In this document: one piece after another, positions 14,962 to 61,231 of the stretch
Layout: the number at the start of each line of letters is the position of its first letter
Position numbering within the stretch: position 1 is the first letter of the stretch
NCBI GenBank assembly: GCA_025363655.1
Contig: JANYDK010000092.1
Span: 186,001-250,000, forward strand
DNA from: Deltaproteobacteria bacterium
Lineage (GTDB): Bacteria; Myxococcota_A; Polyangia; Polyangiales; JADJMO01
Reading direction: 5' to 3'
Length of the DNA: 64,000 nt
Translations under genes and position numbers: made by a program
The notes under the pieces: model-generated
Told to the model about the DNA's origin: nothing
Databases searched by the model: none
What the model saw: the letters and a program-made list of their open reading frames with translations, nothing else

Positions 14962-16470
14962 ATGACGATGCTTCGCTCGATCTCCGTCTGCGCCACGACC
15001 GCAGGGCTTCTCCTCTCGTGCTCCGACGACACGCCGAAGGTGAGCACCGGCAAGCCACCCGGCGACGACGTCGGCACCGATGCCCCTGCCCTCCCGACGA
15101 CGTCGTTCGCGCCGACCGGTTGCGACTACATCGTCGGTCAGGTCGATCAGTATCCGGGCTTCGAAGCGCACGCCGACGTGCTCGGCACGAAGACGTCGGA
15201 CAAGAACTACTACGGCCCGAATCCGACGCACGTGCGCATCGGGCTCGGGGGCAATGCCGACGTCGGCAAGAAGGGATACGCCGACCCGTCGTCGAGCGTC
15301 GCCGTCGTATGGCAGACCGACGCGACCACGATGGCGTCACGCATGAAGATCGGCGAGAGCGCCACCAGCCTCGACAAGAGCGCCACCGGCTTCTCCTATG
15401 TCATCGCGCAGGACCCGGGGTTCGCCACCGGCCCTGCCGACGGCGTCCGCTTCCACGAGGTCCACGTCTGCGGTCTCACGCCCGGTCGCACGTACTATTA
15501 CCAAGTCGGCGGCGGCCCGGCGGGGACCGAGGTCTTCAGCAAGGTCGCGAGCTTCACCACCGCACCGGCGGCGGGCGGCAAAGACCCAGTGAGCTTCGGC
15601 TTCAGCGGCGACACGCGCGATCACGACGGCAACGGCGATCTCGCGATCTGGCGACAAATTGGCTCCCGCGTGAAGGCTGCGGGCGTGCGCATGATGACGT
15701 TCTCCGGCGACTTCGTGTACCTCGGGACGAGCGAGGACATGTGGTACACGTGGGGCAACGCGGCTGATCCGTTCGCCTCCGAGATGTTCGTGGCGATGGG
15801 CCCGGGCAACCACGACAACGAGCAGCTGCGCTACTTCGCCAACGCGCTCATGCCCGGCAACGTCGGCGCCAACTTCGAGCGCTACGCGTCGTTCGACTAC
15901 GGCCCGGTGCACGTCGTGATGATCGACGACTACGATGGCATCGTCTCCGAGAGCATCGACTCCACGAGCTACAAGACCGAGGTGCTCGCCTGGATCGACA
16001 AGGACCTCGCCGCCGCCGACGCCAACCGCGCCAAGGTGCCTTGGATCATGACCTTCCATCATCACCCCTTCTTCAGCTCGACGACCCAGACCGAACGCGC
16101 CGCCGAGCGTGCCAAGGTCATCGCTTCCCTCGAGTCGATCTACGAGGCCCACCACGTCGACTTCGACGTCGCCGGTCACGACCACTTCTACGAGCGAAGC
16201 AAACCGATCCTCGGCGGCAAGGCGAGCGCCGATGGCAAGGGCACGCGCTACGTCATCTGCGCAGGCGGCGGCGCCGACGCGTATTCGACGAAACCGACCG
16301 ACGTCTCGGAGAAGATCGTCGGCTACGATCCGACCAAGCTCGAGGGCCTCTACGGCATCGCGACGGCGACCGCGACGCAGCTCGACGTCAAGGTCTACAA
16401 GATGAACGGCCCCTCGGGCTCGAGCCCCGCCGACGACACGGTGGTCGACACCTGGAGCCTCACGCGCTGA
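14962..16470 (+). CDS. Purple-acid-phosphatase-like lipoprotein (first of tandem pair)
   Basis: 502 residues from the ATG at 14962. A signal ends at LLLSC (lipobox), followed by a Pro/Asp linker. An Fn3-like N-terminal domain (about 60-195: VAVVWQTD, VCGLTPGRTYYYQVGG) precedes a metallophosphatase domain: FSGDTRD, FSGDFVY, GNHDNE, HHHPFFSS and GHDHFYERS. This is the purple acid phosphatase layout (Fn3-like plus dinuclear metal core). It should hydrolyse phosphate esters at the cell surface. It is followed by a close paralogue 51 bp later. The second member shares almost every motif, so a recent tandem duplication is likely. Confidence 0.85.
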   Translation: MTMLRSISVCATTAGLLLSCSDDTPKVSTGKPPGDDVGTDAPALPTTSFAPTGCDYIVGQVDQYPGFEAHADVLGTKTSDKNYYGPNPTHVRIGLGGNADVGKKGYADPSSSVAVVWQTDATTMASRMKIGESATSLDKSATGFSYVIAQDPGFATGPADGVRFHEVHVCGLTPGRTYYYQVGGGPAGTEVFSKVASFTTAPAAGGKDPVSFGFSGDTRDHDGNGDLAIWRQIGSRVKAAGVRMMTFSGDFVYLGTSEDMWYTWGNAADPFASEMFVAMGPGNHDNEQLRYFANALMPGNVGANFERYASFDYGPVHVVMIDDYDGIVSESIDSTSYKTEVLAWIDKDLAAADANRAKVPWIMTFHHHPFFSSTTQTERAAERAKVIASLESIYEAHHVDFDVAGHDHFYERSKPILGGKASADGKGTRYVICAGGGADAYSTKPTDVSEKIVGYDPTKLEGLYGIATATATQLDVKVYKMNGPSGSSPADDTVVDTWSLTR

Positions 16471-16521
16471 GTTTCCGCCTGTTTTCGGCGCCATTTCACA
16501 TGCGTGCTACATTCGTCACGC

Positions 16522-17991
16522 ATGCGTCACTTGCGTCACCTCGGGTGCCTGTCGGCGACTTTTCTCTCCTCGATGGCGATCGCGTCTTGCAGCAGCAAGA
16601 GCGATCCCGCCCCGTCGAGTCCGGTCGACACCGGCGTCGAATCGGGTCCCGTCGTCGTGACGTACGATCCGCAAGGATGCGGCTATCGCGTCGCCGCGAT
16701 CGACGGCTTCCCCGACTTCGAAGCCACCGCCGACAGCCTCGGCGCCGACGCCGCTCCGAAGCACGTGCGCCTCGGGCTCGGGGGCGGCGTCGATGCTTCG
16801 AAGGCCGGGTACGCCGATCCGTCGACGAGCTTCGCGGTGATCTGGCAGACCGACGTCGACACCAAGGTGAGCAAGCTCCGCTTCGGCGACACCGAGACCG
16901 CCCTCACGCACGTCGTCGACGGCATCAGCTACATCGTGCCGCAGGAGCTGAATCGCGGTCCCGAAGCTGGCATTCGCTTTCACGAGGCGCATGCATGCGG
17001 CCTCACGCCCGGTCGAACCGTCTACTACCAAGTCGGTGGCTCGGCCGGCGGCAAAGACGTCTGGAGCGACGTGCGCTCGCTCACGGTCGCGCCTGCAAAG
17101 GGCGGCAAAGACCCGGTGCCCTTCGCTTTCTTCGGCGACACGCGCGACGCCCTCGGTCGCAGCGATCTCCCTGTTTTCAAGGCGATCACGGGTCGCGTGA
17201 AGGTCTCGGGCGCGCGCCTCGGGGTCTTCTCCGGCGATGCCGTGCTGATCGGCGCCGACCAGAGCCTCTGGGACATTTGGACCAACGCCTCCGACGCGCT
17301 CGCCGGCTCCGTCGTCGTCGCCGAGGCCGCCGGCAACCACGAGAACGAGCTCGTCCGCTACTTCGCGCACATCGCGATGCCGGGCGCGACGAAGAACGCC
17401 GAACGCTATGCGTCGTTCGACTACGGCCCGGTTCACTTCGTCTTCGTCGACGACTACGTCGGCATCGTCGCCCCGAGCATCGACGTCACCAACTATCGCG
17501 CCGAGGTCCTCGCCTGGCTCGACGCCGATCTGCAGAAGGCCGACGGCAACCGCGCCAACGTGCCGTGGGTGGTCACGGTGCACCATCACCCGGTCTACGA
17601 TTCGGGCGCCGACAAGGCGCGCGTCGCCGAGCGCAAATCGACGCACGACGCGCTCCTCTCGCTCTACGACAAATACCACGTCGACCTCGATCTCGCGGGG
17701 CACGATCACTTCTACGAACGAAGCAAAGTGCTCGCTGCCGACGCCGTGGCGACGAAGGGCACGACGTACGTCATCTGCGCGGGAGGCGGCGCGCCGTCGT
17801 ACTCGACGAACCCCGACAACCCGCTCTCGCAGAGCATCGTCCATTACGATCCCGACACGTTCCAAGGCCTCTATGGCCTCGCCACCGCCGACGCGACCAA
17901 GCTCGACGTGAAGGTCTATCGCATCAAGGGCGCCGTCGGCACGAGCCCCGCGGACGACGAGATCGTCGACACGTTCACGCTCTCTCGGTAA
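16522..17991 (+). CDS. Purple-acid-phosphatase-like lipoprotein (second of tandem pair)
   Basis: 489 residues from the ATG at 16522; a GTG at 16504 in frame would add six residues. The lipobox is AIASC. It has the same layout as the preceding protein: Fn3-like domain (AVIWQTDVD, ACGLTPGRTVYYQVGG), then FFGDTRD, FSGDAVL, GNHENE (the other copy has GNHDNE), HHHPVYDS and GHDHFYERS. The GNHE variant keeps the metal-binding Asn/His. Conservation of both copies suggests different substrates or dosage. Repeats of GCGTCAC at 16515-16540 overlap the start codon. Confidence 0.84.
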   Translation: MRHLRHLGCLSATFLSSMAIASCSSKSDPAPSSPVDTGVESGPVVVTYDPQGCGYRVAAIDGFPDFEATADSLGADAAPKHVRLGLGGGVDASKAGYADPSTSFAVIWQTDVDTKVSKLRFGDTETALTHVVDGISYIVPQELNRGPEAGIRFHEAHACGLTPGRTVYYQVGGSAGGKDVWSDVRSLTVAPAKGGKDPVPFAFFGDTRDALGRSDLPVFKAITGRVKVSGARLGVFSGDAVLIGADQSLWDIWTNASDALAGSVVVAEAAGNHENELVRYFAHIAMPGATKNAERYASFDYGPVHFVFVDDYVGIVAPSIDVTNYRAEVLAWLDADLQKADGNRANVPWVVTVHHHPVYDSGADKARVAERKSTHDALLSLYDKYHVDLDLAGHDHFYERSKVLAADAVATKGTTYVICAGGGAPSYSTNPDNPLSQSIVHYDPDTFQGLYGLATADATKLDVKVYRIKGAVGTSPADDEIVDTFTLSR

Positions 17992-47247: not shown

Positions 47248-47254
47248 ACGTTCC

Positions 47255-48406
47255 GTGAAGGCCTTCGCGACTCGGGTGCTTCGTCACCTGCTCGTCGCGG
47301 GGGCCTTCGCCTTTTTGTCGACGTCGTTCGCCGCGCATGCGCGAGCCGAGAGTCCGGCCGCAACCGACCTCGCGACGGCCAACGCGGCGATCGATCGCAA
47401 GGACGACGACGCAGCGAAGCCGATCCTCGCGCGTCTCGCGACGGGGCCCACGGCCACCGCCGAAGAGCGCGACGTCGCGGCCCGAGCATCGTTTCTCCTG
47501 GCGACCCTCGACGAGCGTCTGCGCGACTACCCGAGCGCGATGACGCACTACCGCGCCGTCTTGACGATCGATCCCGGGAACTGGTTCGCCTCGACGGCCC
47601 GCGCGAGGCTCGAGGCGCTGGCGCCGTACGACGCCGATTTCGCCTCGCTCGAGCGGCTCGACGCAATTCGCAAAGATCCTGCGCGCGCGAACGACCCAGC
47701 GGCGATCGACGCGCTCGCCCGTGAGCTCCAGGAATTTCCCTCGGGAAACGCGCGTCGCGAGGGCTACCTCTTCGTCGCGCAGGCGTACCTCGGGAGGCTG
47801 CAGAGGCCACGCGACGCGGTCGCTCCGGCGCTGAGCGTCGCGCATGATCGCACCGCGCCGCTGATACAGCGACAGAGTGCCTTCGACGTCGCCCACGCCG
47901 CACTGATGGCGATCGGCGCCCTCGACGAAGCGGCGCGCGTGATCGGCGACGACCCCGATGCGCCGCCATGGCTACGCAAGACGATCCGACGTGACCTCCG
48001 TCGGCGCACGCTCCACGTCGGTTCGACGCGCCTGCTCTTCCTCGGCGGTGGCATCGGTCTCGCGGCGCTGGTGATCGCCGCGCGTCGCCAGCGGCTGCGC
48101 ATCACCGGAAGAGCGCTGGTGAATCCCCACGCGCTCGCGATCGTCGGCGTCCTCGTGGGCCTCGGATATTTGATCGCGCAGCAGTGGGAAGATGGCGATG
48201 GAAAGCCATTTCTCGGCTTCGGCGTGGTGCTTCTCGGAGTCCACGTGCTCGTCGCGTCACTCCGGGGTGCGCTGGCCGATCGTGGTCGCGTGCTCCGTGT
48301 CTCGTCCGCGCTCGTCGTCGCAGCGTGCGTGCTCGCGGGCGCTTACCTCGTGCTCGAACGAGGACAAGCGCACGGCGCGTCCTATCTGGAGGGGTTCGGA
48401 CTCTAG
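47255..48406 (+). CDS. TPR-containing membrane protein
   Basis: 383 residues from a GTG, 7 bp after the SPT-like gene. Signal/first hydrophobic segment (HLLVAGAFAFLSTSFAAHARA), then a helical TPR-like region (ATANAAIDRKDDDAAKPILARL; ERLRDYPSAMTHYRAVLTIDP), then three or four membrane segments (LLFLGGGIGLAALVIAA; ALAIVGVLVGLGYLIAQ; PFLGFGVVLLGVHVLVASL; SALVVAACVLAGAYLVL). The close spacing suggests co-transcription with the SPT-like enzyme. No family was recognised. Confidence 0.65.
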   Translation: MKAFATRVLRHLLVAGAFAFLSTSFAAHARAESPAATDLATANAAIDRKDDDAAKPILARLATGPTATAEERDVAARASFLLATLDERLRDYPSAMTHYRAVLTIDPGNWFASTARARLEALAPYDADFASLERLDAIRKDPARANDPAAIDALARELQEFPSGNARREGYLFVAQAYLGRLQRPRDAVAPALSVAHDRTAPLIQRQSAFDVAHAALMAIGALDEAARVIGDDPDAPPWLRKTIRRDLRRRTLHVGSTRLLFLGGGIGLAALVIAARRQRLRITGRALVNPHALAIVGVLVGLGYLIAQQWEDGDGKPFLGFGVVLLGVHVLVASLRGALADRGRVLRVSSALVVAACVLAGAYLVLERGQAHGASYLEGFGL

Positions 48407-48441: not shown

Positions 48442-50340
48442 TCAGCGCGCGCACCGAAAGCCGAGGAGCGGATCGGCGCTCTCTTCGACGGCGCCCGAAG
48501 TCTGTTTCTGCGACGGCGCTGCGAACAGCGCGGGAGCCTGCGCGTTGGTGGTCTCGAGCGCGACACCGCGGACGACCGCGAAGTCGCCGTCGACGTCGCC
48601 AGTCCATTCACGCACCGAGCCGAAGAGATCGAAGACGCCCTCGGGCGTGCGATCGACGACGTAGGACTCGACCCTCGGGAGCTTGCTCCCGACGACGCGG
48701 TTGGCGCCGACCGGACCCGGCGGCGGAAAGCCCTCGCCCCACGGGTATTTCCGCTTTCCGAGCGCGCTCGACCACTCGGCGCTGGTCGGCAAGCGCGCGG
48801 CGATGGCGTGGCAGAAACCGTCCGCTTGCGGCTGCGTCACCCAGGTCACTGGACGATCGAAGCGACCATCGTCGACGTCCTCACCTGGCCATTCGCGGAG
48901 GGGACGCCGCGTCGGGCGATCGGGTTCGGTGAGCGAGAGGAGGTAGAGCTCGTACTCGCCGCGCGTGGTCTCGTGGCGCTCTAGCTCGAGGATTCCTGCG
49001 GCGACGAGCGCGCCCGTGTCGACGAAGGGATTGGTCTCGGCGACCTCTTGCGCGAGCGTCTTCGACTTCTGCTTCGGTGAGCTCGACAGAGCAGAGGCCC
49101 CCTGCGTCAGAGACGTTGACGAGCTCTTGGGGGGCGAATCGCTCGCTACGGGGCTGCGGGAAGGCTCGTTCGAATTCTTGGCGAGGACGGCGATGACCAC
49201 GACGAGCCCGAGCGCAGCCAAGAGGGCCACCGGAAGGACCCACGGCGGAGGCTTCGTTCGCCTTTTTTTTCCGATCGATCCGGAATCGCTGGCCACTCGC
49301 GCAGAAGCGTCCGAGGCCGCCGGCGCCGTCGTCGAGCTGAAGGCCGGGGGAGCACGCTCGGTCTTCCCTCCGGGGATCTCGGGGACCACCGTCGGCGGCG
49401 TCGCGATCATCGTCGGCGGCGCCGCGGGATCGACGACCAAGGAGACGCGCGGAGGTGGCGGGGTCGCAGTGACGTCGACCGAGAGCGCTTGCGCGAGCGC
49501 GTTCACGGCAGCACCGGCGCGGGCGAAGCGCATCTCCGGATCTTTGTGGACGCACTGCGCAAACCAATCGTCGAACGCACGCGGCAAGGTCACGCCACTG
49601 CGCACGGCGCGCTTCGACGCTCGTTCGCTCGCTCCGCCGATGATCTCCGGATAGAGCTCTTCGAGCGTCTCGCCCTCCCAGTAGGGCCGACCGACGAGGA
49701 AATCGTAGGCGATGAGCCCGATCGCCCAGATGTCGGTCCAGGGGCCGATTTGCTTGCTACGCCCCATCTGCTCGGGCGCCATGAAGAGCGGCGTGCCAGC
49801 CGCTTGCGTGGTGTGCGCCGACGCCGCGCGAACGATCTTGGCGATGCCGAAGTCGAGGATCTTCACGCGCACGAGGTCTTCTTCGATCGCGAGGAAGAGG
49901 TTCGCGGGCTTCAGATCACGGTGCACCACTTGCGCGGCGTGGGCCTTGTCGAGCGCGCGCGCCGCTTGTCCGAGCCAGGCCACCGTCTCTTCGGCAGAGA
50001 AGCGCCCCTTCTGTTTGAGCAGCTCGCCGAGCTCGTGACCTCGCAAGAGCTCCATCACGAGGAAAGGCATCTCGGTCTTCGGATCGATGTCGGCGTCGGT
50101 CACCTGCACGACGTGCGGACTGTCGATGAGCGAGGCGACCTGCGCCTCTTGGACGAAGCGATCGCGCATCACCTGGTTGGCGATGAGGTCGGGATTCATC
50201 ACCTTGAGCGCGAGCGGCGCCTGCGTGCGTACGTGACGTACGAGATAGACCGCCCCCATTCCGCCGGCCTTGAGCCGCCTTTCGATGCGATACCGACCGG
50301 CGAAGATGCCGCCAGGCTCGAGCGTCGCGAAGGTGACCAT
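48442..50340 (-). CDS. Ser/Thr protein kinase fused to a formylglycine-generating-enzyme-like domain
   Basis: 632 residues. Kinase domain (about 15-280): GxGxxG-like KAGGMGAVY, Lys46 (ALKVM), HRDLKPAN (Asp142) and DFG (163-165), GTPLFMAPEQ. A Pro/Ser-rich linker and one membrane helix (about 367-387) lead to a periplasmic FGE/SUMF1-like domain (about 455-632: ELERHETTRGEYELYL, WVTQPQADGFCHAIAARLPTSAEW, YPWGEG, PEGVFDLFGSVREWTGD, LLGFRCAR). The kinase is catalytically intact. In this domain class the FGE part is usually a binding module rather than an oxidase. It might sense a periplasmic ligand. The next gene encodes a secreted protein of the same domain family. Confidence 0.88.
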   Translation of the reverse strand: MVTFATLEPGGIFAGRYRIERRLKAGGMGAVYLVRHVRTQAPLALKVMNPDLIANQVMRDRFVQEAQVASLIDSPHVVQVTDADIDPKTEMPFLVMELLRGHELGELLKQKGRFSAEETVAWLGQAARALDKAHAAQVVHRDLKPANLFLAIEEDLVRVKILDFGIAKIVRAASAHTTQAAGTPLFMAPEQMGRSKQIGPWTDIWAIGLIAYDFLVGRPYWEGETLEELYPEIIGGASERASKRAVRSGVTLPRAFDDWFAQCVHKDPEMRFARAGAAVNALAQALSVDVTATPPPPRVSLVVDPAAPPTMIATPPTVVPEIPGGKTERAPPAFSSTTAPAASDASARVASDSGSIGKKRRTKPPPWVLPVALLAALGLVVVIAVLAKNSNEPSRSPVASDSPPKSSSTSLTQGASALSSSPKQKSKTLAQEVAETNPFVDTGALVAAGILELERHETTRGEYELYLLSLTEPDRPTRRPLREWPGEDVDDGRFDRPVTWVTQPQADGFCHAIAARLPTSAEWSSALGKRKYPWGEGFPPPGPVGANRVVGSKLPRVESYVVDRTPEGVFDLFGSVREWTGDVDGDFAVVRGVALETTNAQAPALFAAPSQKQTSGAVEESADPLLGFRCAR

Positions 50341-50380
50341 CGGACGAGGAGCTTATCCGGGCTGCGGAGGAGGCGTGACG

Positions 50381-51565
50381 TCAGAAGGGTGGGAGCGAGG
50401 TCTTCTTCGGCGCGTCGTCGATGTCGGGAGTGAGAGCGCAGCGGAACCCGTTCATGGGCTCGACGTTCGAGTAGTGCTCGTCGGTGATGATCACTTCGTT
50501 CGGCTGGACGCTGAAGAAGCTCCCTCCGCGCGCGTAGTTGCTGAAGCCGCCGAGCGATCGGGTGATCTCCGAGACGTTGCCGCCGAGATCGTAGAAGCCG
50601 AAATTCTCCATCGGGAAGGCGCCGACAGGCGACGTCTCGGGATAGACGTCGGCACCCGCGAACGACGTCGGGTGGCTCGATCCAGGGTATTTCGTGGTGT
50701 AGTTGGGTGGGCACTCGCCGAAGCAGAGGTTGGACGCGCTCGGCGACGGCTCGGTGTTGCCCCACGGATACGTCGTCGCCTTGGCGCCCCCGCGCGCAGC
50801 CCATTCCCACTCTTCGCTGAACGGAAGCCGCTTGCCGACGGCGACGCAGAAGGCATCGGCTTCGGCGAAGTCGACGCAGTTGATCGGATGCGTTTCGCGG
50901 CCCTTGGGGTGATTCCAATTGCAGAAGGGCTCGTTGGCGTTCGCGCCGCCGAGGTTGGCACTGGACGCGTACTTCCCGTGGGGCTCGCCGCACTTCTTGC
51001 CGGCGACGCACGACGCGTACGACTTCACCGTCACCTCGGTGACGTCCATGCAGAAGGGGACCACCGTCATCACCTTCGAGTAGTGCGGCGGCTTGTACGT
51101 GCCTCCGCTCACGTAAATCATGCCGCTCGGACACCCGAGGAGAATGGGTGGCGCAGCGGTCGTCACCACCGTCGGTACCGGTCCCGCCTTGGCGGTCGCC
51201 GTCGGAATCGCGATCGTCGGCGCCGAGGTCGCGGTGGGCGTCGGAGTCGGCGCGGGCGTGACGATGATGGTGGTGTTCGTCGGCTTGCTGGTTCCCGTGG
51301 TAGTCGCGGTCACGGTCGGCGTCGGAGCCGGCTTCACGGTCGGCTTCGGCGTCGGGGTCGGCGCTGCAGCAGGTTTGGCGATGCACCGCGAGACGCCCTT
51401 GCCGTCGGTGCTCTCCGCCTTGCCGGTCGGACAGTCGCACTTCTTCGTCCCCGAGTTCGGCTTTCCGCCGGCACCACATTGGTACTCGGTCGCCGCCGGG
51501 GCATTCGAGGCGGCGACAGCGGTGGCGAGGACGAGCAGCACCGAGCTGAGCGAGCGAAGACGCAT
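50381..51565 (-). CDS. Secreted FGE/SUMF1-like domain protein
   Basis: 394 residues from the ATG at 51565. Signal peptide ends about NAPAAT. A short Cys motif (CGAGGKPNSGTKKCDC...C), a ~70-residue Pro/Thr-rich linker, then a sulfatase-modifying-factor-like domain (about 165-390: MIYVSGGTYK, FCMDVTEVTVKSYASCV, HPINCVDFAEADAFCVAVGKRLPFSEEWEWAARGG, YPWGNTEPSP, GFYDLGGNVSEITRSL, GFRCALTPDI). The W of the usual GNVWEW is Ser-Glu-Ile here. Upstream of, and same strand as, the kinase-FGE fusion gene with 40 bp between. Confidence 0.82.
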   Translation of the reverse strand: MRLRSLSSVLLVLATAVAASNAPAATEYQCGAGGKPNSGTKKCDCPTGKAESTDGKGVSRCIAKPAAAPTPTPKPTVKPAPTPTVTATTTGTSKPTNTTIIVTPAPTPTPTATSAPTIAIPTATAKAGPVPTVVTTAAPPILLGCPSGMIYVSGGTYKPPHYSKVMTVVPFCMDVTEVTVKSYASCVAGKKCGEPHGKYASSANLGGANANEPFCNWNHPKGRETHPINCVDFAEADAFCVAVGKRLPFSEEWEWAARGGAKATTYPWGNTEPSPSASNLCFGECPPNYTTKYPGSSHPTSFAGADVYPETSPVGAFPMENFGFYDLGGNVSEITRSLGGFSNYARGGSFFSVQPNEVIITDEHYSNVEPMNGFRCALTPDIDDAPKKTSLPPF

Positions 51566-51775: not shown

Positions 51776-54229
51776 GTGCGCGACTGGCGCGGCCCGACGC
51801 TTGCTGAAGCGCTCGCAAAGCTCGTGTCTGCTTCGCTGCTCATCGACGACTCTGCATTCGCCTGTCTCCACTGCGGCTCGTCTCTGGGCGCGAGCGACGG
51901 ACCCTATTGCTGCAGCGGTTGCGAGCTCGTCGCCGCGCTCCTTCGTCGCGATCACCTCGAGCGCTACTACGACCTTCGCGGCGAACGCGGGCAGCCGGTG
52001 CCGGATGTGCCTTCGTATCGGGACGAGAAGTGGCTCGAGCCGATCGAAGCTCGGCTCGCCGCCTCGAGCGGGCTCTGTCGCGTCGATCTCGACGTGCAGG
52101 GCCTGCATTGCAGCGGCTGCGTCTGGCTCGTCGACGAGCTCTTCCGAAGGCGGGCGGGCGGCGTGCGCGCGCTCGTAAACCCCGCCCTCGGCAAGGTGCA
52201 GCTCTCGATCGAGAGCACGTTCGCGCTCCGTGACTTCGTCCGCGAGCTCGCGCGCTTCGGCTACCTGCTCGGTCCCTCGCTGAAGGGACGCGCCAGCGAA
52301 GCGAGCGACGGCGGTGCATCCCGCGGGCTCCTCGTGCGTATGGGCCTCTGCATCGCGATCGCGATGAACTCGATGATCTTCGCGATCGCGCTCTATGCCG
52401 GGCTCAGCGACGGGCCGGTCGCGCGTCTCTTCCAAGCGCTCAATTTCGGGTTCGGAATCCTCAGCGTGGCCATCGGCGGGAGCGTGTTTCTCCGCTCGGC
52501 ATACGAAGGACTCCGCCGAGGCGTGCTCCACCTCGACACGCCGATCGCGCTCGGGATCCTCCTCGCGTTCGGCTCGTCGACGTGGTCGTTCTTCGCGCGC
52601 GACTCGCGGACGGCGTACTTCGACACGCTCGACGTCTTCATCGCGCTCATGCTCGTCGGGCGCTACCTCCAGGAGCGTGTGCTCGAGCGCAATCGCCTCG
52701 CGCTCCTCGCAGACGACGGCGCAGGCTCGCTGCTGACGCGCCGCATGGGAGCGGGAGGACCCGAGCTCGTGCGCTGCGGCGAGCTCCGTCGAGGAGACGT
52801 GCTCTTGATCGCGCCGGGAGATCTGGTCCCGGTCGAAGGTACGCTCCTCGACGCCCACGCCAGCTGCTCGCTCGATTGGATCAACGGCGAGAGTCGGCCC
52901 CGCGGGTATGCGGTCGGCGAACCGATCCCCGCCGGAGCCTTCCTCGCGTTCGCGTCCGGCGCGGTACGGCTTCACGCGGAGGAAGACTTCGACGACGGTG
53001 CGCTCGTCGAGCTGCTGCGCTCGCCGCTCGACCGAAGCGCGGACTCGCTTCGTGCCTCGCGCATCTCGCCGTTCTGGGACGGCATCGCGCGGCGCTATGT
53101 CGTCTCGGTGCTCGTCGCGGCCTCGATCGGCTTTTTTTCCTGGCTGTTCGTCACCCGCGACCTCGCGCGCGCGCTCGATGTCGTCACCGGTCTGCTCATC
53201 GTCACCTGTCCGTGCGCGTTCGGCATCGCGGTGCCGATGGCCTACGAGCTCGCGCAAGCAGGCCTGCGACGCGCCGGACTCTATGTGCGCTCTCGAGGGT
53301 TTCTCGATCGCGCGCTGACCGTGCGCCGCGTCGTCTTCGACAAGACCGGCACGCTGACGACGGGAACGCTCGGGCTCACGGTCGAGAGTCGCGCGGCGCT
53401 GGCTAGGCTCGGGGACGACGAGGTCGCAGAGCTCCACGCGATGACCTCGCGCTCGACCCATCCCAAGAGCGTGGCGGTGGCACGCGCGATCGCCGCTCGC
53501 GTGCCGCGTCCGATCCTCGACGCGGTGATCTCCGAAGAGGTCGGCTGCGGCCTGCGCATGGACCTCGATGGGCACGCGTGCAGATTCGGCGCCGCCGCTT
53601 GGGCAGGTGCCGAGCGCAATGAAGAGGCCGACGTCGCCTTCACCAAGGACGGCGAGGTGCGCTGCGAGCTGCGCTTCACCGAGGAGATGCGTCCGGACGC
53701 CCGCGTCGAGGTCGAGGAGCTGCGGCGCGACGGCTTCGAGGTCTTCGTGCTCAGCGGCGACGCCGAGGATCGCGTCGCGCAAATGGCGTCGAATTTAGGC
53801 ATTCCCAGCGATCACGCGCTCTCCGCGCGGACGCCGATCGCGAAGATGGCGTGGCTCGATGCGCACGACCACGGCGACACGTTGATGATCGGCGATGGCA
53901 TCAACGACGCGCTGGTGGTCGACGCCGCCTGGTGCAGCGGCACGCCGGCGATCGATCGACCGTTCATGGCGGCGCGCTCCGACTTCTACTTCACCACGCT
54001 CGGGCTCCGTCCGATTCGGCTCGCCCTGCAGACGAGTCGGGCCCTCGCGCAGACCGTGCGCCGGACGCTGCGGGTCGCGCTCGCCTACAACGCTTTGACC
54101 GTGGGTTTGGCCTACGCGGGCCTGATGTCGCCGTTGGTCTGCGCCGTGCTCATGCCGGTGAGCTCGCTGACCACGATGGCGTTCGTCGTCGGTTCGCTCT
54201 CCAGGAGAAGCCCCCTTTGGAAATCGTGA
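51776..54229 (+). CDS. ccoI: Copper-translocating P-type ATPase CcoI/FixI
   Basis: 817 residues from GTG 51776 (a later GTG is possible). N-terminal Cys cluster (CLHCGSSLG...CCSGC), HMA domain with GLHCSGC, then six to eight membrane segments. CPC is Cys478-Pro-Cys480; phosphorylation Asp522 in DKTGT; His562-Pro in the SERCA-like HP motif; GDGINDA hinge. It is the cbb3-type CcoI branch. It loads copper for cbb3 oxidase assembly. It is first in the operon, and overlaps ccoS. Confidence 0.93.
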   Translation: MRDWRGPTLAEALAKLVSASLLIDDSAFACLHCGSSLGASDGPYCCSGCELVAALLRRDHLERYYDLRGERGQPVPDVPSYRDEKWLEPIEARLAASSGLCRVDLDVQGLHCSGCVWLVDELFRRRAGGVRALVNPALGKVQLSIESTFALRDFVRELARFGYLLGPSLKGRASEASDGGASRGLLVRMGLCIAIAMNSMIFAIALYAGLSDGPVARLFQALNFGFGILSVAIGGSVFLRSAYEGLRRGVLHLDTPIALGILLAFGSSTWSFFARDSRTAYFDTLDVFIALMLVGRYLQERVLERNRLALLADDGAGSLLTRRMGAGGPELVRCGELRRGDVLLIAPGDLVPVEGTLLDAHASCSLDWINGESRPRGYAVGEPIPAGAFLAFASGAVRLHAEEDFDDGALVELLRSPLDRSADSLRASRISPFWDGIARRYVVSVLVAASIGFFSWLFVTRDLARALDVVTGLLIVTCPCAFGIAVPMAYELAQAGLRRAGLYVRSRGFLDRALTVRRVVFDKTGTLTTGTLGLTVESRAALARLGDDEVAELHAMTSRSTHPKSVAVARAIAARVPRPILDAVISEEVGCGLRMDLDGHACRFGAAAWAGAERNEEADVAFTKDGEVRCELRFTEEMRPDARVEVEELRRDGFEVFVLSGDAEDRVAQMASNLGIPSDHALSARTPIAKMAWLDAHDHGDTLMIGDGINDALVVDAAWCSGTPAIDRPFMAARSDFYFTTLGLRPIRLALQTSRALAQTVRRTLRVALAYNALTVGLAYAGLMSPLVCAVLMPVSSLTTMAFVVGSLSRRSPLWKS

Positions 54230-54399
54230 TCTTCCAAGTCTTCGTCAGCCTCGTGCTCGGCGTCGGCTCGCTGCTCCTCTTCGCGTTCAGCGCACGCGCG
54301 CGCGACAGCGAGCACGCCGACCGCCTCGCGCTCCTACCCCTCGAAGACGAGGCCCCTTCCCCTCCTGCAACGTCCACCTCTTCCAAAGAGACGCCATGA
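54217..54399 (+). CDS. ccoS: cbb3 oxidase maturation protein CcoS
   Basis: 60 residues, starting at TTG 54217, chosen because AGGAG lies nine bases upstream and CcoS proteins begin MEI. A GTG at 54226 overlapping the ccoI stop is the alternative. One membrane segment (FQVFVSLVLGVGSLLLFAF) followed by an acidic, disordered tail. It overlaps the ccoI end and the ccoN-ccoO start (ATGA). Role: assembly of haem and copper into cbb3 oxidase. Confidence 0.85.
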   Translation: MEIVIFQVFVSLVLGVGSLLLFAFSARARDSEHADRLALLPLEDEAPSPPATSTSSKETP

Positions 54400-56783
54400 G
54401 CACGTCATCGTCATCTCGCACCGAAAAAATCGTCTACGACGACGGGGTCGTCCGCAAGTTCGTCTTCGCCTCGATCGCCTTCGGCATCGTCGCGATGTTG
54501 GTCGGCGCCATCGCCGCGCTCCAGCTCGCGTTCCACCAGGCGAACGTCCATCCCTACCTCTCGTTCGGCAGGCTTCGCCCGCTGCACACCAACGCGGCCA
54601 TCTTCGCCTTCGTCGGCAACATGATGTTCGCGGGCGTCTACTACTCGACGCAGCGCCTCACGAAGCAGCGCCTCTTCTCCAACGTCCTCACCAACCTCCA
54701 TTTCTGGGGCTGGCAGCTGATCATCGTCGCCGCCGCGGTGACGCTCCCGCTGGGGATGACGCAAGGAAAAGAGTACGCCGAGCTGGAGTGGCCGATCGAT
54801 CTCGCGATCACGGCGGTGTGGGTGATCTTCGCGATCAACTTCTTCGGCACGCTCTGGAAGCGCAACGAGAAGAACCTCTACGTCGCGCTATGGTTCTACA
54901 TCTCGACGATCGTGACGGTGGCGGTGCTCCACATCGTCAACAGCATGGCGATCCCGATTTCTCCCTTCAAGAGCTACTCGCTCTTCGGCGGCGCCAAGGA
55001 TGCGCTCATCCAGTGGTGGTACGGCCACAACGCGGTCGCCTTCTTCCTCACCACCCCGATCCTCGGCATCATGTACTACTTCGTGCCGAAGGCCGCCGAT
55101 CGGCCGGTGTACAGCTACCGACTCTCGGTCGTGCACTTCTGGTCCTTGGTGTTCATGTACATCTGGGCGGGGCCGCACCACCTGCTCAACACCGCCCTGC
55201 CCGATTGGGCGCAGACGCTGGGGATGGTCTTCTCGGTGATGCTCTGGGCGCCGAGCTGGGGCGGCATGCTCAATGGCCTCCTCACGCTCCGCGGTGCTTG
55301 GCAGAAGCTCCGCACCGATCCGGTGCTCAAGTTCTTCGCCGCCGGCATCACCTTCTACGGAATGGCCACTTTCGAGGGCCCGCTCCTCTCGATCAAGAGC
55401 GTCAGCGGCCTCGCGCACTACACCGATTGGATCATCGGTCACGTGCACGGCGGCGCACTCGGCTGGAACGGGCTGATGGCCGCGGGGATGTTCTATTGGC
55501 TGATCCCGCGCCTCTACGGCACCAAGCTGCGCTCGACGCGCGCGGCCGACATCCACTTCTGGCTCGGCACCTTCGGCATCGTCCTCTACATGGTCGCGAT
55601 GTGGGTCGGCGGCATCACGCAAGGCATGATGTGGCGCGCGCAGAGGCCCGACGGTGGGCTCCTCTACCAAGGCATTCCCGGCTTCGTCGAGACGCTCGTG
55701 GCGCTGAAGCCGATGTACTGGATGCGCCTCGTCGGCGGCACCATGTACCTCGTCGGGTTCGTGATGATGGGATGGAATCTCATCGCCACCGCCCGCTCCG
55801 GCAAGCCCGTCGACGGCGAGACGACCGTCGTCATCGAGGGCGAAGAGGCCGATTCGCAGGGAAAAACAGGCGCAAAAGTGCGTTGGACCGAGATCGTCTT
55901 CGCGCAGCCGGTGGTGATCAGCTTCCTCGTCCTCGCCACCCTCGCGTGCATCGCCTTCACCAGCGCGATCGGCGCCGGCGCCTTCATGCTCTTCGCCGGA
56001 ACGATCGCCTTCTTCGCCATCTTCTTCGCGCAGCTCTCGAAGAAGCCGGGCGAGTCGACCTGGCACGCACTCCTCGAGGGACGTGCGCTCCTCTTCACCG
56101 TGCTCACCGCCATCGCCGTCCTCATCGGCGGCGCGGCGGAGATCATCCCCGCGCTCGTGGTGCAACAGACCGACGGTGCGGCGACGGCCGCCGGTCGTCC
56201 GTATCGCCCGCTCGAGCTCGAAGGACGCGACATCTACCTGCGCGAGGGTTGCTACGTCTGCCACTCGCAGATGATTCGTCCCTTCACCTGGGAGACGCAG
56301 CGCTACGGCGAGGTCTCGGCGATCGGTGACTCGGTCTACGACCACCCCTTCCAATGGGGCAGCAAACGCACTGGACCCGATCTCGCGCGCGAGGGCGGTC
56401 GCAACCCGAACGAGTGGCACTACACGCACTTGATCGATCCGCGCTCGGTGGTGCCGCAGTCGAACATGCCGCCCTACGCGCACACCGCGAAGTGGAAGCT
56501 CGATTTCACCAAGACGGCGGACAAGCTGCGAGCGATGCGCGCGGTCGGCGTGCCCTACACGCCCGAACAAATCGCCGCTGCGGCCACCGACGCGAAGGCC
56601 CAGGCCGACGGCATCGTCGCCGACCTCGCCACCAAGGGCATCACCGTCGCGCCCGACGCGGAGATCGTCGCGCTCATCGCCTACCTGCAAAAACTAGGGA
56701 CCAACGCGCCGGCGACGAAGACCGCGGCCCCGATCACCCAGCTCGCGCCCCCCGTGAGCAGCACGACCTCTCACGCAGATTGA
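54396..56783 (+). CDS. ccoNO: cbb3-type cytochrome c oxidase subunits I and II, fused (CcoN-CcoO)
   Basis: 795 residues, with CcoN (about 1-475) and CcoO (about 495-795) in one chain. CcoN: RPLHTNAAIFAF, WWYGHNAVAFF, GPHHLLNTALP, and HYTDWIIGHVHGGALGWNG, the helix with the catalytic Tyr and haem ligands. CcoO: membrane anchor, then the c-type haem site CYVCH (Cys619-Cys622-His623). The two are normally separate genes of about 470 and 200-300 residues; fusions are known in some lineages. It reduces O2 with high affinity and pumps protons in the inner membrane. ATGA overlap with ccoS. Confidence 0.93.
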   Translation: MSTSSSSRTEKIVYDDGVVRKFVFASIAFGIVAMLVGAIAALQLAFHQANVHPYLSFGRLRPLHTNAAIFAFVGNMMFAGVYYSTQRLTKQRLFSNVLTNLHFWGWQLIIVAAAVTLPLGMTQGKEYAELEWPIDLAITAVWVIFAINFFGTLWKRNEKNLYVALWFYISTIVTVAVLHIVNSMAIPISPFKSYSLFGGAKDALIQWWYGHNAVAFFLTTPILGIMYYFVPKAADRPVYSYRLSVVHFWSLVFMYIWAGPHHLLNTALPDWAQTLGMVFSVMLWAPSWGGMLNGLLTLRGAWQKLRTDPVLKFFAAGITFYGMATFEGPLLSIKSVSGLAHYTDWIIGHVHGGALGWNGLMAAGMFYWLIPRLYGTKLRSTRAADIHFWLGTFGIVLYMVAMWVGGITQGMMWRAQRPDGGLLYQGIPGFVETLVALKPMYWMRLVGGTMYLVGFVMMGWNLIATARSGKPVDGETTVVIEGEEADSQGKTGAKVRWTEIVFAQPVVISFLVLATLACIAFTSAIGAGAFMLFAGTIAFFAIFFAQLSKKPGESTWHALLEGRALLFTVLTAIAVLIGGAAEIIPALVVQQTDGAATAAGRPYRPLELEGRDIYLREGCYVCHSQMIRPFTWETQRYGEVSAIGDSVYDHPFQWGSKRTGPDLAREGGRNPNEWHYTHLIDPRSVVPQSNMPPYAHTAKWKLDFTKTADKLRAMRAVGVPYTPEQIAAAATDAKAQADGIVADLATKGITVAPDAEIVALIAYLQKLGTNAPATKTAAPITQLAPPVSSTTSHAD

Positions 56784-56802
56784 CGGAGAAAGAAGCAGAG
56801 CC

Positions 56803-56997
56803 ATGTTTGGTCAACTCTTCAGGAACAGTCCGCTCCTCGTCTATCCCATCGCCGCGCTCGCCATCTTCCTGGCGGTGTTCACGGTCATCGTGCTCCGCGT
56901 CTACGGACGCAAGGCGAGCACCTACGACGGCGTCTCGCGATTGCCGCTCGAGTCGGAAGAAGACGACACGAACACCGAGGCACGCCGCCATGTCTGA
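56803..56997 (+). CDS. ccoQ: CcoQ-like subunit of cbb3 oxidase
   Basis: 64 residues: one membrane segment (LLVYPIAALAIFLAVFTVIVLRVYG) and an acidic C-terminus. Its size and position between CcoO and CcoP fit CcoQ. It starts 19 bp after the fused ccoNO and overlaps the start of ccoP by eight bases. CcoQ stabilises the complex. Confidence 0.8.
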   Translation: MFGQLFRNSPLLVYPIAALAIFLAVFTVIVLRVYGRKASTYDGVSRLPLESEEDDTNTEARRHV

Positions 56998-57589
56998 GCG
57001 CGAAACGAAGCCGGCCGAGAAGTCTCCGGGCGAAGATCCCGACAAAGACCGCGTCATCCACGAGTACGACGGGATTCAGGAGTACGACAATCGGCTGCCC
57101 AACTGGTGGCTCTATACCCTCTTCGGCTCGATCATCTTCGCGGGCGGCTATTGGCTGCACTACGAGTCGTTCAAGGTGGGTCCCTCGCCGAAGGTCGCGT
57201 ACGACAAAGAGATGGCGGCGATCAACGCGGCCGAGGCCGAGAAGGTGAAGGCGATGGGCGCCGTCACCGAAGAAGGGCTGCGCACCCTTGCGAAGGACGC
57301 CATCACCGTCGCCGACGGCAAGGCGACCTTCGAGCAGGTGTGCTTCACCTGCCACCTCGCGAACGGCGGCGGAAATATCGGCCCAAATCTCACCGACGGG
57401 TCGTGGCTCCATGGCGGTTCGCCGGAGAAGATCTACCTCTCGATCCGAGACGGTTGGCCCGAGAAGGGGATGCTCGCGTGGGGCCCGCAGCTCGGTGAAC
57501 AGAAGGTGCGCGCGCTTGCCGCCTTCGTCCTCACGATCAAAGGCTCGAACGTCGCGGGGGGGAAGGCGCCGCAAGGGACCGCCGAGTGA
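56990..57589 (+). CDS. ccoP: cbb3 oxidase subunit CcoP, mono-haem short form
   Basis: 199 residues. N-terminal YDGIQEYDNRLPNWWLYTLFGSIIFAGGYW is the characteristic FixP anchor. Only one c-haem site is present (CFTCH, Cys118-Cys121-His122), whereas CcoP usually has two and ~300 residues. The following IGPNLTDGSWLHGG is a usual c-type cytochrome stretch. It feeds electrons to the fused CcoO haem. It ends in GTGA overlap with ccoG. Confidence 0.9.
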   Translation: MSERETKPAEKSPGEDPDKDRVIHEYDGIQEYDNRLPNWWLYTLFGSIIFAGGYWLHYESFKVGPSPKVAYDKEMAAINAAEAEKVKAMGAVTEEGLRTLAKDAITVADGKATFEQVCFTCHLANGGGNIGPNLTDGSWLHGGSPEKIYLSIRDGWPEKGMLAWGPQLGEQKVRALAAFVLTIKGSNVAGGKAPQGTAE

Positions 57590-59004
57590 GTGCGGATCGC
57601 GAAGAGCGCGTGCATCTCCCGATCGTCAAGAGCTCGCTCCGCTCCGATGGCTCGCGCGACTTCGTGCAGCCGGCGGACGTGCGAGGTCGCTTCCAGAACG
57701 CGCGGCGCGTGGTCTACGTCCTCTTGGTGGTGATCTGGCTCCTCTTGCCGATGGTGAAGATCGGCGGCAGCCCTGCCGTCTTCCTCGACATCGAGCACCG
57801 CCGGTTCTTCCTCTTCGGCTCCACCTTCAACGCGCAGGACATCTGGCTCGTCTTCTTCCTCCTCACGGGGGTGGCCTTCGGTCTCGTCTACCTCACCGCG
57901 CTCCTCGGCCGCGTCTGGTGTGGCTGGGCGTGCCCGCAGACGGTGTTCATGGAGGGCTTCTTCCGCCCCATCGAGCGCCTCACCGAGGGGCCACGCGAAG
58001 CACGCCTGAGACGCAATGCGGGGCCGTGGAGCGCCGGCAAGCTCGCGCGCAAGATCGCCAAGCACGCGCTCTTCCTCCTCCTCGCGTTCTTCGTCGCCCA
58101 CGTTTTTCTCGGCTATTTCGTCTCGCTCCCGGGCCTCTTCCGGATGGTGCGCGGACGACCGGGCGATCACCCCGAGGCCTTCGGTTGGGCCGTCGCGCTC
58201 ACCGGCGTCTTCTACGTCGACTTCAGTTGGTTCCGCGAACAGATGTGCCTCGTCGTCTGCCCCTACGGACGCATGCAATCGATCCTCGTCGATCGCGATT
58301 CGCTCGTCGTCGGCTACGACGAGAGGCGGGGCGAGCCACGGGGCAAGGCGGTCCGCAGGGAGAAGAAAGAGGAGGTCGAGCCAAGCGTCGGCGATTGCGT
58401 CGATTGCAAGCGATGCGTCGTCGTCTGTCCGACCGGCATCGACATCCGCAACGGCCTGCAGATGGACTGCATCGGCTGCACCGCCTGCATCGACGCCTGC
58501 GACGAGGTGATGGACAAGCTCGAGCGCCCACGCGGCCTCGTTCGCTACGACTCGCTCGCGGGCCTCTCGCAGGAGAAGAAGCGCGTCTTGCGGCCGCGCA
58601 TGTACGTGTACACCGCGCTCCTCCTCCTCGGCGTGCTGGTAGCGTCGATCGCTTTTCGCAAGCACACCGACTTCGAGGCCAATGTTCTCCGCATCCCTGG
58701 CGCGCCCTTCGTGCTCGACGGCAGCGACGTACGAAATGCCTATGAAATTCACCTCATCAACAAGCTGCCCCGCCGCGAGACCTTCACCGTGGTGCCCGTT
58801 CCGCAGGCCGGGCTCACCTTCATCATGCCGACCCAATCGGTGACGCTCGAGCCGCTCGCGAGCACGCACGTCCCCGTCTTCGTGACGCTCGCGCGCTCGA
58901 GCTTCCAAGGGCAGTTGACGCTGCGACTGACGGTCACCGCCGCGAGCGAGCCGGACGAGCCGATGACGGTGACGACGAGCTTCCTCGGCCCGACGACGCC
59001 GTAG
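57586..59004 (+). CDS. ccoG: Cytochrome c oxidase accessory iron-sulphur protein CcoG
   Basis: 472 residues from GTG. Membrane segments around a 4Fe-4S-binding core: CGWACPQTVFMEGFFRPIERL, CLVVCPYGRMQS, CVDCKRCVVVCPTGIDIRNGLQMDCIGCTACIDACDEVMDK, and a C-terminal Ig-like domain (about 375-470). CcoG is implicated in copper reduction and delivery during cbb3 assembly. It is followed by the 78-residue peptide gene 22 bp downstream, so the peptide and radical SAM genes are likely co-transcribed. Confidence 0.93.
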   Translation: MSADREERVHLPIVKSSLRSDGSRDFVQPADVRGRFQNARRVVYVLLVVIWLLLPMVKIGGSPAVFLDIEHRRFFLFGSTFNAQDIWLVFFLLTGVAFGLVYLTALLGRVWCGWACPQTVFMEGFFRPIERLTEGPREARLRRNAGPWSAGKLARKIAKHALFLLLAFFVAHVFLGYFVSLPGLFRMVRGRPGDHPEAFGWAVALTGVFYVDFSWFREQMCLVVCPYGRMQSILVDRDSLVVGYDERRGEPRGKAVRREKKEEVEPSVGDCVDCKRCVVVCPTGIDIRNGLQMDCIGCTACIDACDEVMDKLERPRGLVRYDSLAGLSQEKKRVLRPRMYVYTALLLLGVLVASIAFRKHTDFEANVLRIPGAPFVLDGSDVRNAYEIHLINKLPRRETFTVVPVPQAGLTFIMPTQSVTLEPLASTHVPVFVTLARSSFQGQLTLRLTVTAASEPDEPMTVTTSFLGPTTP

Positions 59005-59026: not shown

Positions 59027-59263
59027 ATGAGCGGGTCCAACGACGTGCCGCCGGAGTTGCCGCCGCTACCGCCGGGCGTCCTCGCGGTTCGTCTCGGGCC
59101 CGGCGCCAACTGCTCGTCGGTCGGTTCGGTGATCGATTTGCTCTTCGGTGCCGTCGTCGTCAGCGGCGTCCTCTACGCGGCGATTCACGTCGCGGTCGCC
59201 GAGCGACGTGTCGCTCGCGCGCCGAAAGAGCAGGAAAACAAGCCTCCCGAGATCGATTCGTGA
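59027..59263 (+). CDS. 78-aa membrane peptide with GANCSSVGS motif, candidate radical-SAM substrate
   Basis: 78 residues: a Pro-rich polar leader (VPPELPPLPPGVL), the motif GPGANCSSVGS with a single Cys29, a membrane segment (about 36-58: VIDLLFGAVVVSGVLYAAIHVAV) and a charged tail. It overlaps the radical SAM start by four bases (GTGA at 59260-59263). One Cys, Ser and Gly before a helix would suit a modification site for a radical SAM enzyme. It could instead be a copper-handling or subunit-like peptide of the oxidase, similar in size to CcoQ. I know no named family with this motif. Confidence 0.65.
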   Translation: MSGSNDVPPELPPLPPGVLAVRLGPGANCSSVGSVIDLLFGAVVVSGVLYAAIHVAVAERRVARAPKEQENKPPEIDS

Positions 59264-60465
59264 CCACGCTCCCGCCGCTCCGGGCACGCGCCGAGCACTT
59301 CGGTGCCTGGGCTCGGCTCGACGATCGGACGATGGTCGCGCTCGATCGCGAGACCGCGCGCTCGCTCGGCATTCTGGGCGACGAGGTGTGGGACGGCCCG
59401 CAACCGCTCGACACCACCGGTGCTCTCTCCGCCCCCCTCGAGGTCCACGTCGCGATCACCACCCGCTGTCCGGTGCAGTGCACGGGCTGCTATCAGGAAG
59501 CGCGGCCCGAAGGTGTGCACGTCGAGACGACGACGCTCCTCGAGAGCCTCGATGCGCTCGCGGCCGCTGGCGTCTTCACCGTCGCGTTCGGCGGCGGCGA
59601 ACCGCTCACCCACCCTGCGCTCGAACGGTTGGCAGAGCACGCACGTGCACGCGGGCTGACTCCGGTGCTCACCACCAGCGGCATCGGGCTCTCGGAAGAG
59701 CGCGCGCGCTCGCTCGCTGCCTACGCGCAAATCAACGTCAGCCACGACGGCGTCGGAGAAGCCTACGAAGCGGTGCGCGGCTTCGACGGAGGTCACGTCG
59801 CCGAACGCGCGATTCGCACGTTGGTCGCCGCTGGCATTCCCGTCGGCGTCAACGTCGTCCTCACGCGCGACAGCTACGGCGCCGAGGGCGCGCATCTGCT
59901 GGCCACCGTGGCGCACGTCGCGTCGCTCGGAGCCCGGGAAATCCAGCTCCTTCGTTACAAACCAGCCGGACGCGCAGCCTCGCTCGACTACCTCGCGCGG
60001 AGGCTCGCGCCCGTCGACGTCGACGCCCTGCCGAGGGTGCTCGCGGCCTTGGTCGCGCGCGGCGACGTCTCGATCCGCATCGACTGCGCGCTCGTCCCGC
60101 TCCTCTCGCCAGCGTTCGCCGCGCTCGATGCCGCCGAAGCGACGCGAAGGCTCACCTCCCTCGGCGTCTTCGGGTGCGAGGCCGGCAACGCGCTCTCCGC
60201 CGTCAAACCGAGCGGCCTCGTCGCGCCCTGCAGCTTCCTCGGCGAAGGCGAGCTCCCGGTGCGCGATCTCGCGACGGGCTTTGGTGATGACGCCACGCTC
60301 GCTCGGGCACGCGGACACGTCGATCGACCTTCGCCTCCTTGCGACACGTGCAACATCCGCCGCGTCTGCCGCGGTGGGTGCCGCGTCGTCGCAGATCATC
60401 TTCGTCCCCTCGGCGGCCCCGATCCCGAGTGCCCGCGCGTGCGTGCATTCGAGGAGGCGCGATGA
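59260..60465 (+). CDS. Radical SAM/SPASM-domain enzyme coupled to the peptide gene
   Basis: 401 residues from a GTG overlapping the upstream stop. An N-terminal ~50-residue stretch (AEHFGAWARLDDRTMVALDRETARSLG) precedes the radical SAM core: CPVQCTGC with Cys70-x3-Cys74-x2-Cys77, then AFGGGEPLTHP, TTSGIG, VSHDGV. The C-terminal SPASM region has several Cys (about 307-374: FGCEAGN, APCSF, CDTCNIRRVCRGGC). SPASM enzymes often modify ribosomal peptides or proteins by radical chemistry. The adjacent 78-residue peptide is the obvious candidate substrate. Whether the small Cys motif is cross-linked cannot be told from sequence. Confidence 0.85.
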   Translation: MTTLPPLRARAEHFGAWARLDDRTMVALDRETARSLGILGDEVWDGPQPLDTTGALSAPLEVHVAITTRCPVQCTGCYQEARPEGVHVETTTLLESLDALAAAGVFTVAFGGGEPLTHPALERLAEHARARGLTPVLTTSGIGLSEERARSLAAYAQINVSHDGVGEAYEAVRGFDGGHVAERAIRTLVAAGIPVGVNVVLTRDSYGAEGAHLLATVAHVASLGAREIQLLRYKPAGRAASLDYLARRLAPVDVDALPRVLAALVARGDVSIRIDCALVPLLSPAFAALDAAEATRRLTSLGVFGCEAGNALSAVKPSGLVAPCSFLGEGELPVRDLATGFGDDATLARARGHVDRPSPPCDTCNIRRVCRGGCRVVADHLRPLGGPDPECPRVRAFEEAR

Positions 60466-60776
60466 CCGCGCGAGCGCCGAAGACCGCGCTGACGTTCGCC
60501 GCCATCGCCGCGCTGCTCTCGATCCCGGCCACCTACGCCATCCAGCGGCTCGTTCAGGACGCGCTTTTTCCAGATCCAAATCCGGCGCTGGTCACTGCCT
60601 CGCTTCGCATCGCGATGTTCTGGCGGCTCGAGGTGTCGCTCCCGATCGCGCTCGTGATCGGCATCGGTACCCACGCAGCAGCGCAGCGCAACGCAGCTTT
60701 GGTCGCGCGCGTCCTCGAGCCCGCCCTCTACGCCTCGGCTTCGCTCCTCGTGCTGCAATCGATCTTGCGACCATGA
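60462..60776 (+). CDS. Small membrane protein (104 aa) of the radical SAM unit
   Basis: 104 residues from the ATG overlapping the radical SAM stop (ATGA). Membrane segments: LTFAAIAALLSIPATYAI, FWRLEVSLPIALVIGIGTHAA and PALYASASLLVLQSIL; a central polar loop (QDALFPDPNPALVTASLR). No motif recognised. Its stop is overlapped by the next start (ATGA). Confidence 0.65.
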   Translation: MTARAPKTALTFAAIAALLSIPATYAIQRLVQDALFPDPNPALVTASLRIAMFWRLEVSLPIALVIGIGTHAAAQRNAALVARVLEPALYASASLLVLQSILRP

Positions 60777-61231
60777 ACGAGCTCTGGCTCCGCGTCCTCG
60801 AGCGCGTGCACGGACACCTCGGGTGGCTCTCGGTGGTGGCGCTCCTCCATCCCGTGATCGTGCTTCGAAGGCCGCGTCGTCGTGCGCGCCTCGCGACTGC
60901 GCTCGCCACCGGCATCGTCACGCTCGCCTTCGTCCTCGGCACCGTCGTCTATCCGAGCTACCGACTGCTCCTCAAACAGGCCATTTTCAGGACGAATCCG
61001 CGCATCGGCTGGCTGTTCGAACGGAAAGAGCACCTCGCGGTCGGCGTCCTCGCGTTCGCCTGGGTGGGGCTCGTCGCGCACTGGCTCTCGTTCGGGCTCG
61101 GGACCAACGACGACGCCGACCTGCGCGCGCGCGTCGAACGCATCGCGCAACGTGGGTACGCGGTCTCCTTCGCGCTCGGCGTCGCCGTCGGCGTGATCGG
61201 CGTGACCGTGGCGGTCTTCAAGACGTTTTGA
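60773..61231 (+). CDS. Four-helix membrane protein with buried histidines (152 aa), end of the radical SAM unit
   Basis: 152 residues, four predicted membrane segments (HLGWLSVVALLHPVIVL; LATALATGIVTLAFVLGTVV; HLAVGVLAFAWVGLVAHWLSFG; GYAVSFALGVAVGVIGVTVAVF). His residues lie in or beside helices (VHGHLGW, LLHPV, KEHLAVG, VAHWLS), positions that could ligate haem b or copper. Family unknown. Convergent with the MYXO-CTERM-like gene at 61257. Confidence 0.6.
   Translation: MNELWLRVLERVHGHLGWLSVVALLHPVIVLRRPRRRARLATALATGIVTLAFVLGTVVYPSYRLLLKQAIFRTNPRIGWLFERKEHLAVGVLAFAWVGLVAHWLSFGLGTNDDADLRARVERIAQRGYAVSFALGVAVGVIGVTVAVFKTF

Follow-up and report, generated by a model that had tools for sequence, protein, structure and literature searches.

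Radical SAM peptide maturases have mostly been studied in the context of secreted natural products or cofactors, and the substrates of one SPASM enzyme, anSME, share the consensus C/S-x-P/A-x-R. This enzyme carries eight SPASM cysteines and oxidizes cysteine or serine to formylglycine (PMC5682303). In another peptide-modifying system, the borosins, an alpha-N-methyltransferase bears the core peptide at its C-terminus (PMC7878506), and modifying enzyme and substrate peptide occur both fused and as separate genes (PMC8429565).

The locus described here pairs a SPASM radical SAM enzyme with a short peptide. This peptide-enzyme system is uncharacterized, and our search of the open literature found no described system of such layout. 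On balance, and with modest confidence, we favor the explanation that the enzyme is a SPASM peptide maturase and that the 78-aa peptide is its dedicated substrate, modified at a Cys/Ser motif and serving as a subunit of a membrane complex.

Organization of the Locus

Within the window (the whole 64,000-nucleotide stretch of DNA that was analyzed), the peptide gene occupies 59027..59263 on the + strand and encodes, from an ATG start, 78 aa with a single cysteine, C29, within GANCSSVGS; the predicted modification site is the core motif N28-C29-S30-S31-V32-G33-S34 (59108..59128, + strand). Three further + strand genes follow in a chain of overlaps: the radical SAM/SPASM enzyme gene (59260..60465; GTG start, 401 aa), which overlaps the peptide gene at GTGA, and the genes of two small membrane proteins, m1 (60462..60776; 104 aa, two hydrophobic segments by hydropathy) and m2 (60773..61231; 152 aa, a four-helix bundle in the predicted model), each entered through an ATGA overlap. 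The preceding ccoG (TIGR02745, 439 bits), whose end at 59004 leaves a gap of 22 bp to the peptide gene, is the last gene of a cbb3 oxidase operon (ccoI-ccoS-ccoNO-ccoQ-ccoP-ccoG; 51776..59004, + strand), a neighbor that lies outside the system. A sequence-only reading of this DNA had described the four chained genes just past ccoG, and all were found where it had placed them. Two points need amending: there is no overlap between ccoG and the peptide gene, and the conserved unit comprises more than these four genes. Within the oxidase operon, ccoN and ccoO seem to be fused in one 795-aa reading frame (54396-56783), and long frames resembling this apparent fusion occur at L005, L193, and L194.

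In the nearest genomes with the whole cluster, G001 and G003 of the same family, the order aminotransferase-TPR2-peptide-enzyme-m1-m2 is contiguous. The window keeps the aminotransferase and TPR2 genes at 45982-48406, with the TPR protein gene TPR2 (47255..48406, + strand; four C-terminal hydrophobic segments by hydropathy) about 10.6 kb upstream of the peptide gene, and the cbb3 operon and two minus-strand genes at 48442-51541 lie in between. From their sequence, we take these two genes to be serine/threonine kinase-like and FGE/SUMF1-like, and related genes are found near the cbb3 operon in G001 and G003. Gene calls beyond the window came from a simple coding model built for this analysis, and the genomes of the relatives are mostly draft assemblies.

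A SPASM Enzyme and a Conserved Peptide

The Cx3Cx2C motif at enzyme residues 70, 74, and 77 is present in 100 of 100 homologues, the match to PF04055 reaches 60 bits (cut-off 29.5), and each of eight SPASM cysteines (276, 306, 324, 361, 364, 370, 374, 391) is kept in at least 99 of the 100. These features mark it as a complete radical SAM protein of the SPASM type, with two auxiliary clusters predicted from the cysteine set. The family profile matched PqqE, SkfB, SuiB, and anSME in the PDB. Similarly, the predicted structure of a fused homologue (L033), in which the enzyme part is confident (overall pLDDT 86.7), best matched SuiB with bound SuiA peptide (Z 28.5 over 372 residues at 3.7 Å; residues 50-442), followed by SkfB (Z 27.4), CteB, anSME (Z 24.7), and PqqE (Z 23.8). 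The peptide part of this fusion was left unplaced (pLDDT about 26-37), and the predicted model argues neither for nor against docking of the peptide in the enzyme. A PADLOC match to pVip, the profile of the prokaryotic viperins of defense (46 bits), covers residues 63-214, the radical SAM core only; the peptide, m1, m2, and the TPR protein had no PADLOC matches.

Likewise, profile searches with Pfam, NCBIfam, and PADLOC assigned neither the peptide nor m1 to a family, and the Pfam and NCBIfam matches of m2 were all sub-threshold. A contig scan, which reaches close relatives only, was confined in its yield to Polyangiaceae and one record named Deltaproteobacteria, and the peptide and enzyme homologue sets were widened by profile searches of 318 genomes from the class and 379 from the phylum. 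The peptide homologues comprise 61 Cys-type and 17 Ser-type sequences, and on this comparison the peptide/enzyme pair appears conserved across the phylum Myxococcota.

Among the Cys-type homologues, A27, C29, S30, S31, G33, and S34 are kept in all 61 and N28 in 59, while the codons at the motif sites vary synonymously, including TCN/AGC switches at one serine. This combination indicates that the peptide gene is real and under selection, which acts on a short polar motif followed by a predicted hydrophobic helix (one hydrophobic segment by hydropathy). The conservation of the GANCSS motif, proposed earlier as a check, was thus borne out, with A-x-C-S-S-x-G-S invariant in the 61 peptides. The motif is under strong purifying selection and the N- and C-terminal tails vary freely in sequence; in charge, the tail of Cys-type peptides is acidic (mean net -2.1) and their N side weakly positive (+0.9), while both sides are positive in Ser-type peptides. 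A lipoprotein was considered and rejected: Asn stands directly before the cysteine and there is no signal sequence ahead of it, which leaves the sequence without a lipobox.

Sorangium-like genomes carry a second Cys-type peptide copy (L094, L104, L107, L109, L112, L141), which stands behind a protein of about 1,224-1,252 aa and has no adjoining radical SAM enzyme. In L107, the only one scanned, this long protein has TPR, DUF3857, transglutaminase, and DUF3858 domains.

Paired Cys- and Ser-Type Clades

Serine replaces cysteine in the enzyme-side peptides of several other orders and classes, which read GxNPNSSS or GYNANSSS. The 22 enzymes paired with Ser-type peptides form one clade among 100 (SH-aLRT 99), a grouping that takes one change and that no shuffle of 500 matched with a value as low. 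The Cys/Ser split thus falls on one deep branch of the tree (all trees here being quick trees) and therefore counts as a single event. Of the 78 Cys-clade enzymes, 74 have Gln at residue 229, where 20 of the 22 Ser-clade enzymes have Glu; residue 277 is Ala in 68/78 and Ser in 22/22, respectively. Two Polyangiales genomes, G267 (L128) and G236 (L144), have a Ser-type peptide with a Ser-clade enzyme, outside the usual lineage of this pair, and G236 also has a Cys-type peptide (L143) with a Cys-clade enzyme (L216); since G236 holds both matching pairs, the enzyme tracks residue type within one genome. A metal-binding product, as the sequence-only reading had entertained, is unlikely to form through the cysteine, since serine stands at this position throughout a whole branch of the family.

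Co-occurrence and Fusion of Peptide and Enzyme

Both peptide and enzyme are present in 21 of 57 relatives and both are missing from 35, while one relative has only the enzyme and none has only the peptide (Fisher 1e-14, kinship ignored); in the enzyme-only relative, G002, the peptide is cut off by the contig end. At 82 of 99 peptide loci the enzyme gene lies no more than 3 kb away. Linkage accounts for part of the co-occurrence, which also extends to genomes in which the two genes are not adjacent (G030, G048, G035) or lie on different contigs (G021). At L217 (G226), the order is TPR2-enzyme-m1-m2 with no intervening peptide, and the peptide of that genome is found elsewhere, behind a long TPR protein. 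At L003 and L004, a divergent m2 and one more small membrane protein come after the enzyme; no peptide is close by, but both genomes have one at another place.

Other classes encode motif, hydrophobic segment, and enzyme in a single reading frame of about 380-520 residues; a TPR-type gene stands before it, and m1 and m2 often come after it. Within Polyangiales, the split forms surround separate in-frame fusions in two genomes (L033, L042); the L042 enzyme is shorter than those of its relatives, for which the assembly could be the cause. The fused state, found in 26 of 98 rows, takes 4 changes on the tree, of which at least 3 are forced. We know of no precedent for such fused and split forms among radical SAM enzymes.

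The co-occurrence, the repeated in-frame fusion, the tracking of Cys and Ser by enzyme clade, and the peptide-maturase-like fold lend strong, if indirect, support to the earlier suggestion that the peptide is the substrate. We infer that the enzyme would modify, via a 5'-deoxyadenosyl radical, the sequence G-x-x-[A/P]-N-[C/S]-S-[S/A]-x-G immediately ahead of the hydrophobic helix, the likeliest site being the Cys/Ser itself or else a neighboring residue. The product may be an oxidized, formylglycine-like residue, which is the natural first guess because anSME, with the same number of SPASM cysteines, oxidizes Cys or Ser; the alternative chemistry would be a cross-link via the side-chain S or O. 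Once modified, the peptide would probably remain in the inner membrane and serve there as a small subunit of an envelope complex. The cues to its topology are mixed: in the fused form a cytosolic enzyme following one membrane span would place the motif outside, and the flanking charges differ between the Cys and Ser types.

The fusion could also simply anchor the enzyme. We regard it as improbable, yet deserving of serious weight, that the unmodified peptide is a membrane anchor or recognition subunit and that the real substrate is another protein (the TPR protein or a phosphatase) or a small molecule. A hydrophobic peptide that is often fused to the enzyme is what one would expect of an anchor, and the second peptide of some genomes lies far from any enzyme; however, an invariant polar N-[C/S]-S-S-x-G motif would be needless for a mere anchor, and the enzyme clade would not then track Cys versus Ser. 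There is a much smaller chance that the peptide is a classical secreted RiPP, leaving the cell after modification and cleavage to act as a signal or antibacterial. While the enzyme class is typical of RiPPs, no conserved dedicated protease or exporter was seen in the examined neighborhoods (either could be encoded elsewhere), the core is near-invariant across orders, unlike that of diversifying natural products, and the fused form comes without a separate precursor.

Possible Partners of the Peptide

If the peptide is the modified subunit of an envelope complex, as we favor, its partners would probably be m1, m2, and the TPR protein, the last of these being exported. A recognizable TPR2 homologue is present at 52 of 99 peptide loci, an undercount given that other upstream genes are often TPR-like, and the upstream TPR protein recurs across classes. 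m2 is found at 41 of the 99 loci, with homologues in the cluster across classes, and m1 homologues lie directly 3' of the enzyme in several families. The m2 model (pLDDT 93.7) has four predicted helices; its fold was discarded as a clue to function, being a generic four-helix bundle for which many unrelated bundles tied, and the di-heme designs among the matches prove nothing.

The genes of such a complex probably had those of a purple acid phosphatase and a porin as ancestral neighbors. A purple-acid-phosphatase homologue, in the cluster with PF16656 and PF00149 domains, lies within 12 kb of the peptide at 19 of the 99 loci, in 11 families. This link is probably real in those lineages, because the genome of the window (9.0 Mb) has 5 phosphatase genes of that kind, which by our own estimate gives a chance of about 1% per 24-kb stretch. 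Both the TPR and the phosphatase links are positional only. A search of the window's own genome with the cluster phosphatase found two tandem homologues at 14989..17739 (approximate ends, + strand). These lie roughly 30 kb ahead of TPR2 and are possible distant partners. In some genomes of other orders, a PF03618 kinase/pyrophosphorylase gene follows the enzyme (L120, L121, L124, L126, L127, L129-L131, L133, L189).

Relation to cbb3 Oxidase

The system has no general link to cbb3 oxidase. cbb3 genes occur within 12 kb of the peptide at 2 of 99 loci, and adjacency to ccoG is restricted to the window and G258, a genome of another family. The enzymes of these two loci are not specially related: L150 groups with L151 of the same genus, near which there are no cbb3 genes. 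The sister genomes G001 and G003 have their cbb3 operon on a different contig from the peptide, and no peptide follows it there. Moreover, ccoG is found without the enzyme in 23 of the 57 relatives, and G023 gave no ccoG match despite having both peptide and enzyme. ccoG is present in 20 of the 22 enzyme-bearing relatives versus 23 of the 35 others, a difference that is not significant (p = 0.056, kinship ignored).

The sequence-only reading had proposed to look for orthologues beside cbb3 genes, a check that failed, and its proposal that the peptide product aids the assembly or activity of the oxidase finds no support here. That a modified, perhaps metal-binding peptide helps cbb3 oxidase in this way is the least probable of the explanations, for although the peptide directly follows ccoG in two different families and enzyme bearers lean toward ccoG, 97 of 99 loci have no cbb3 genes nearby, operon and peptide are apart in the sister genomes, enzyme and ccoG each occur without the other, and a whole branch has Ser instead of Cys. 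Two independent placements beside ccoG do exceed what we would expect by chance, and shared low-oxygen expression, without a dedicated cbb3 role, may lie behind them; such co-expression could be useful because the enzyme would be oxygen-sensitive.

Comparison with Known Systems

A maturase/peptide pair that is found phylum-wide, with a near-invariant core and a membrane-looking helix, points to a housekeeping use of a modified membrane peptide, and the fused and split versions that occur in nature, together with the matched Cys and Ser clades, offer ready-made swaps for testing substrate recognition and residue choice. Tentatively, and with more doubt than confidence, the system may represent a new class of radical-SAM-modified membrane microprotein, retained as a structural or catalytic subunit, with a fused or separate maturase, Cys- and Ser-specialized clades, and possibly a membrane-embedded formylglycine-like cofactor in an envelope complex.

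Like the SPASM RiPP maturases (SuiB, SkfB, CteB, PqqE), the enzyme combines a Cx3Cx2C barrel and a SPASM domain with a small adjoining peptide gene, and, as in RiPP systems, a conserved precursor-like peptide is linked to the enzyme. It differs from them in scoring below every curated NCBIfam cut-off, the best match being the mycofactocin maturase MftC (TIGR03962; 94.7 bits, cut-off 265), with lower scores for the GeoRSP enzyme (TIGR04303; 81.7 bits, cut-off 400) and PqqE (TIGR02109; 75 bits, cut-off 381.35). The GeoRSP and mycofactocin enzymes are thus the nearest NCBIfam families, but the enzyme lies far below their cut-offs and the peptide has no family match. The peptide further departs from those of SPASM RiPP maturases in being membrane-protein-like, in its N-[C/S]-S-S motif, in its frequent fusion to the enzyme, and in its TPR and membrane partners.

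The fused and separate forms recall the borosins, although here the enzyme is a radical SAM protein and the peptide is at the N-terminus, an analogy rather than a relation. With anSME, the enzyme shares the eight SPASM cysteines, and the Cys or Ser substrates of anSME match the Cys/Ser alternation observed here. In contrast to anSME, the consensus C/S-x-P/A-x-R is replaced by [C/S]-S-[S/A]-x-[G/A/S] (C-S-S-x-G-S in the Cys-type), no sulfatase was seen in the conserved neighborhood, and each enzyme clade is bound to one residue type.
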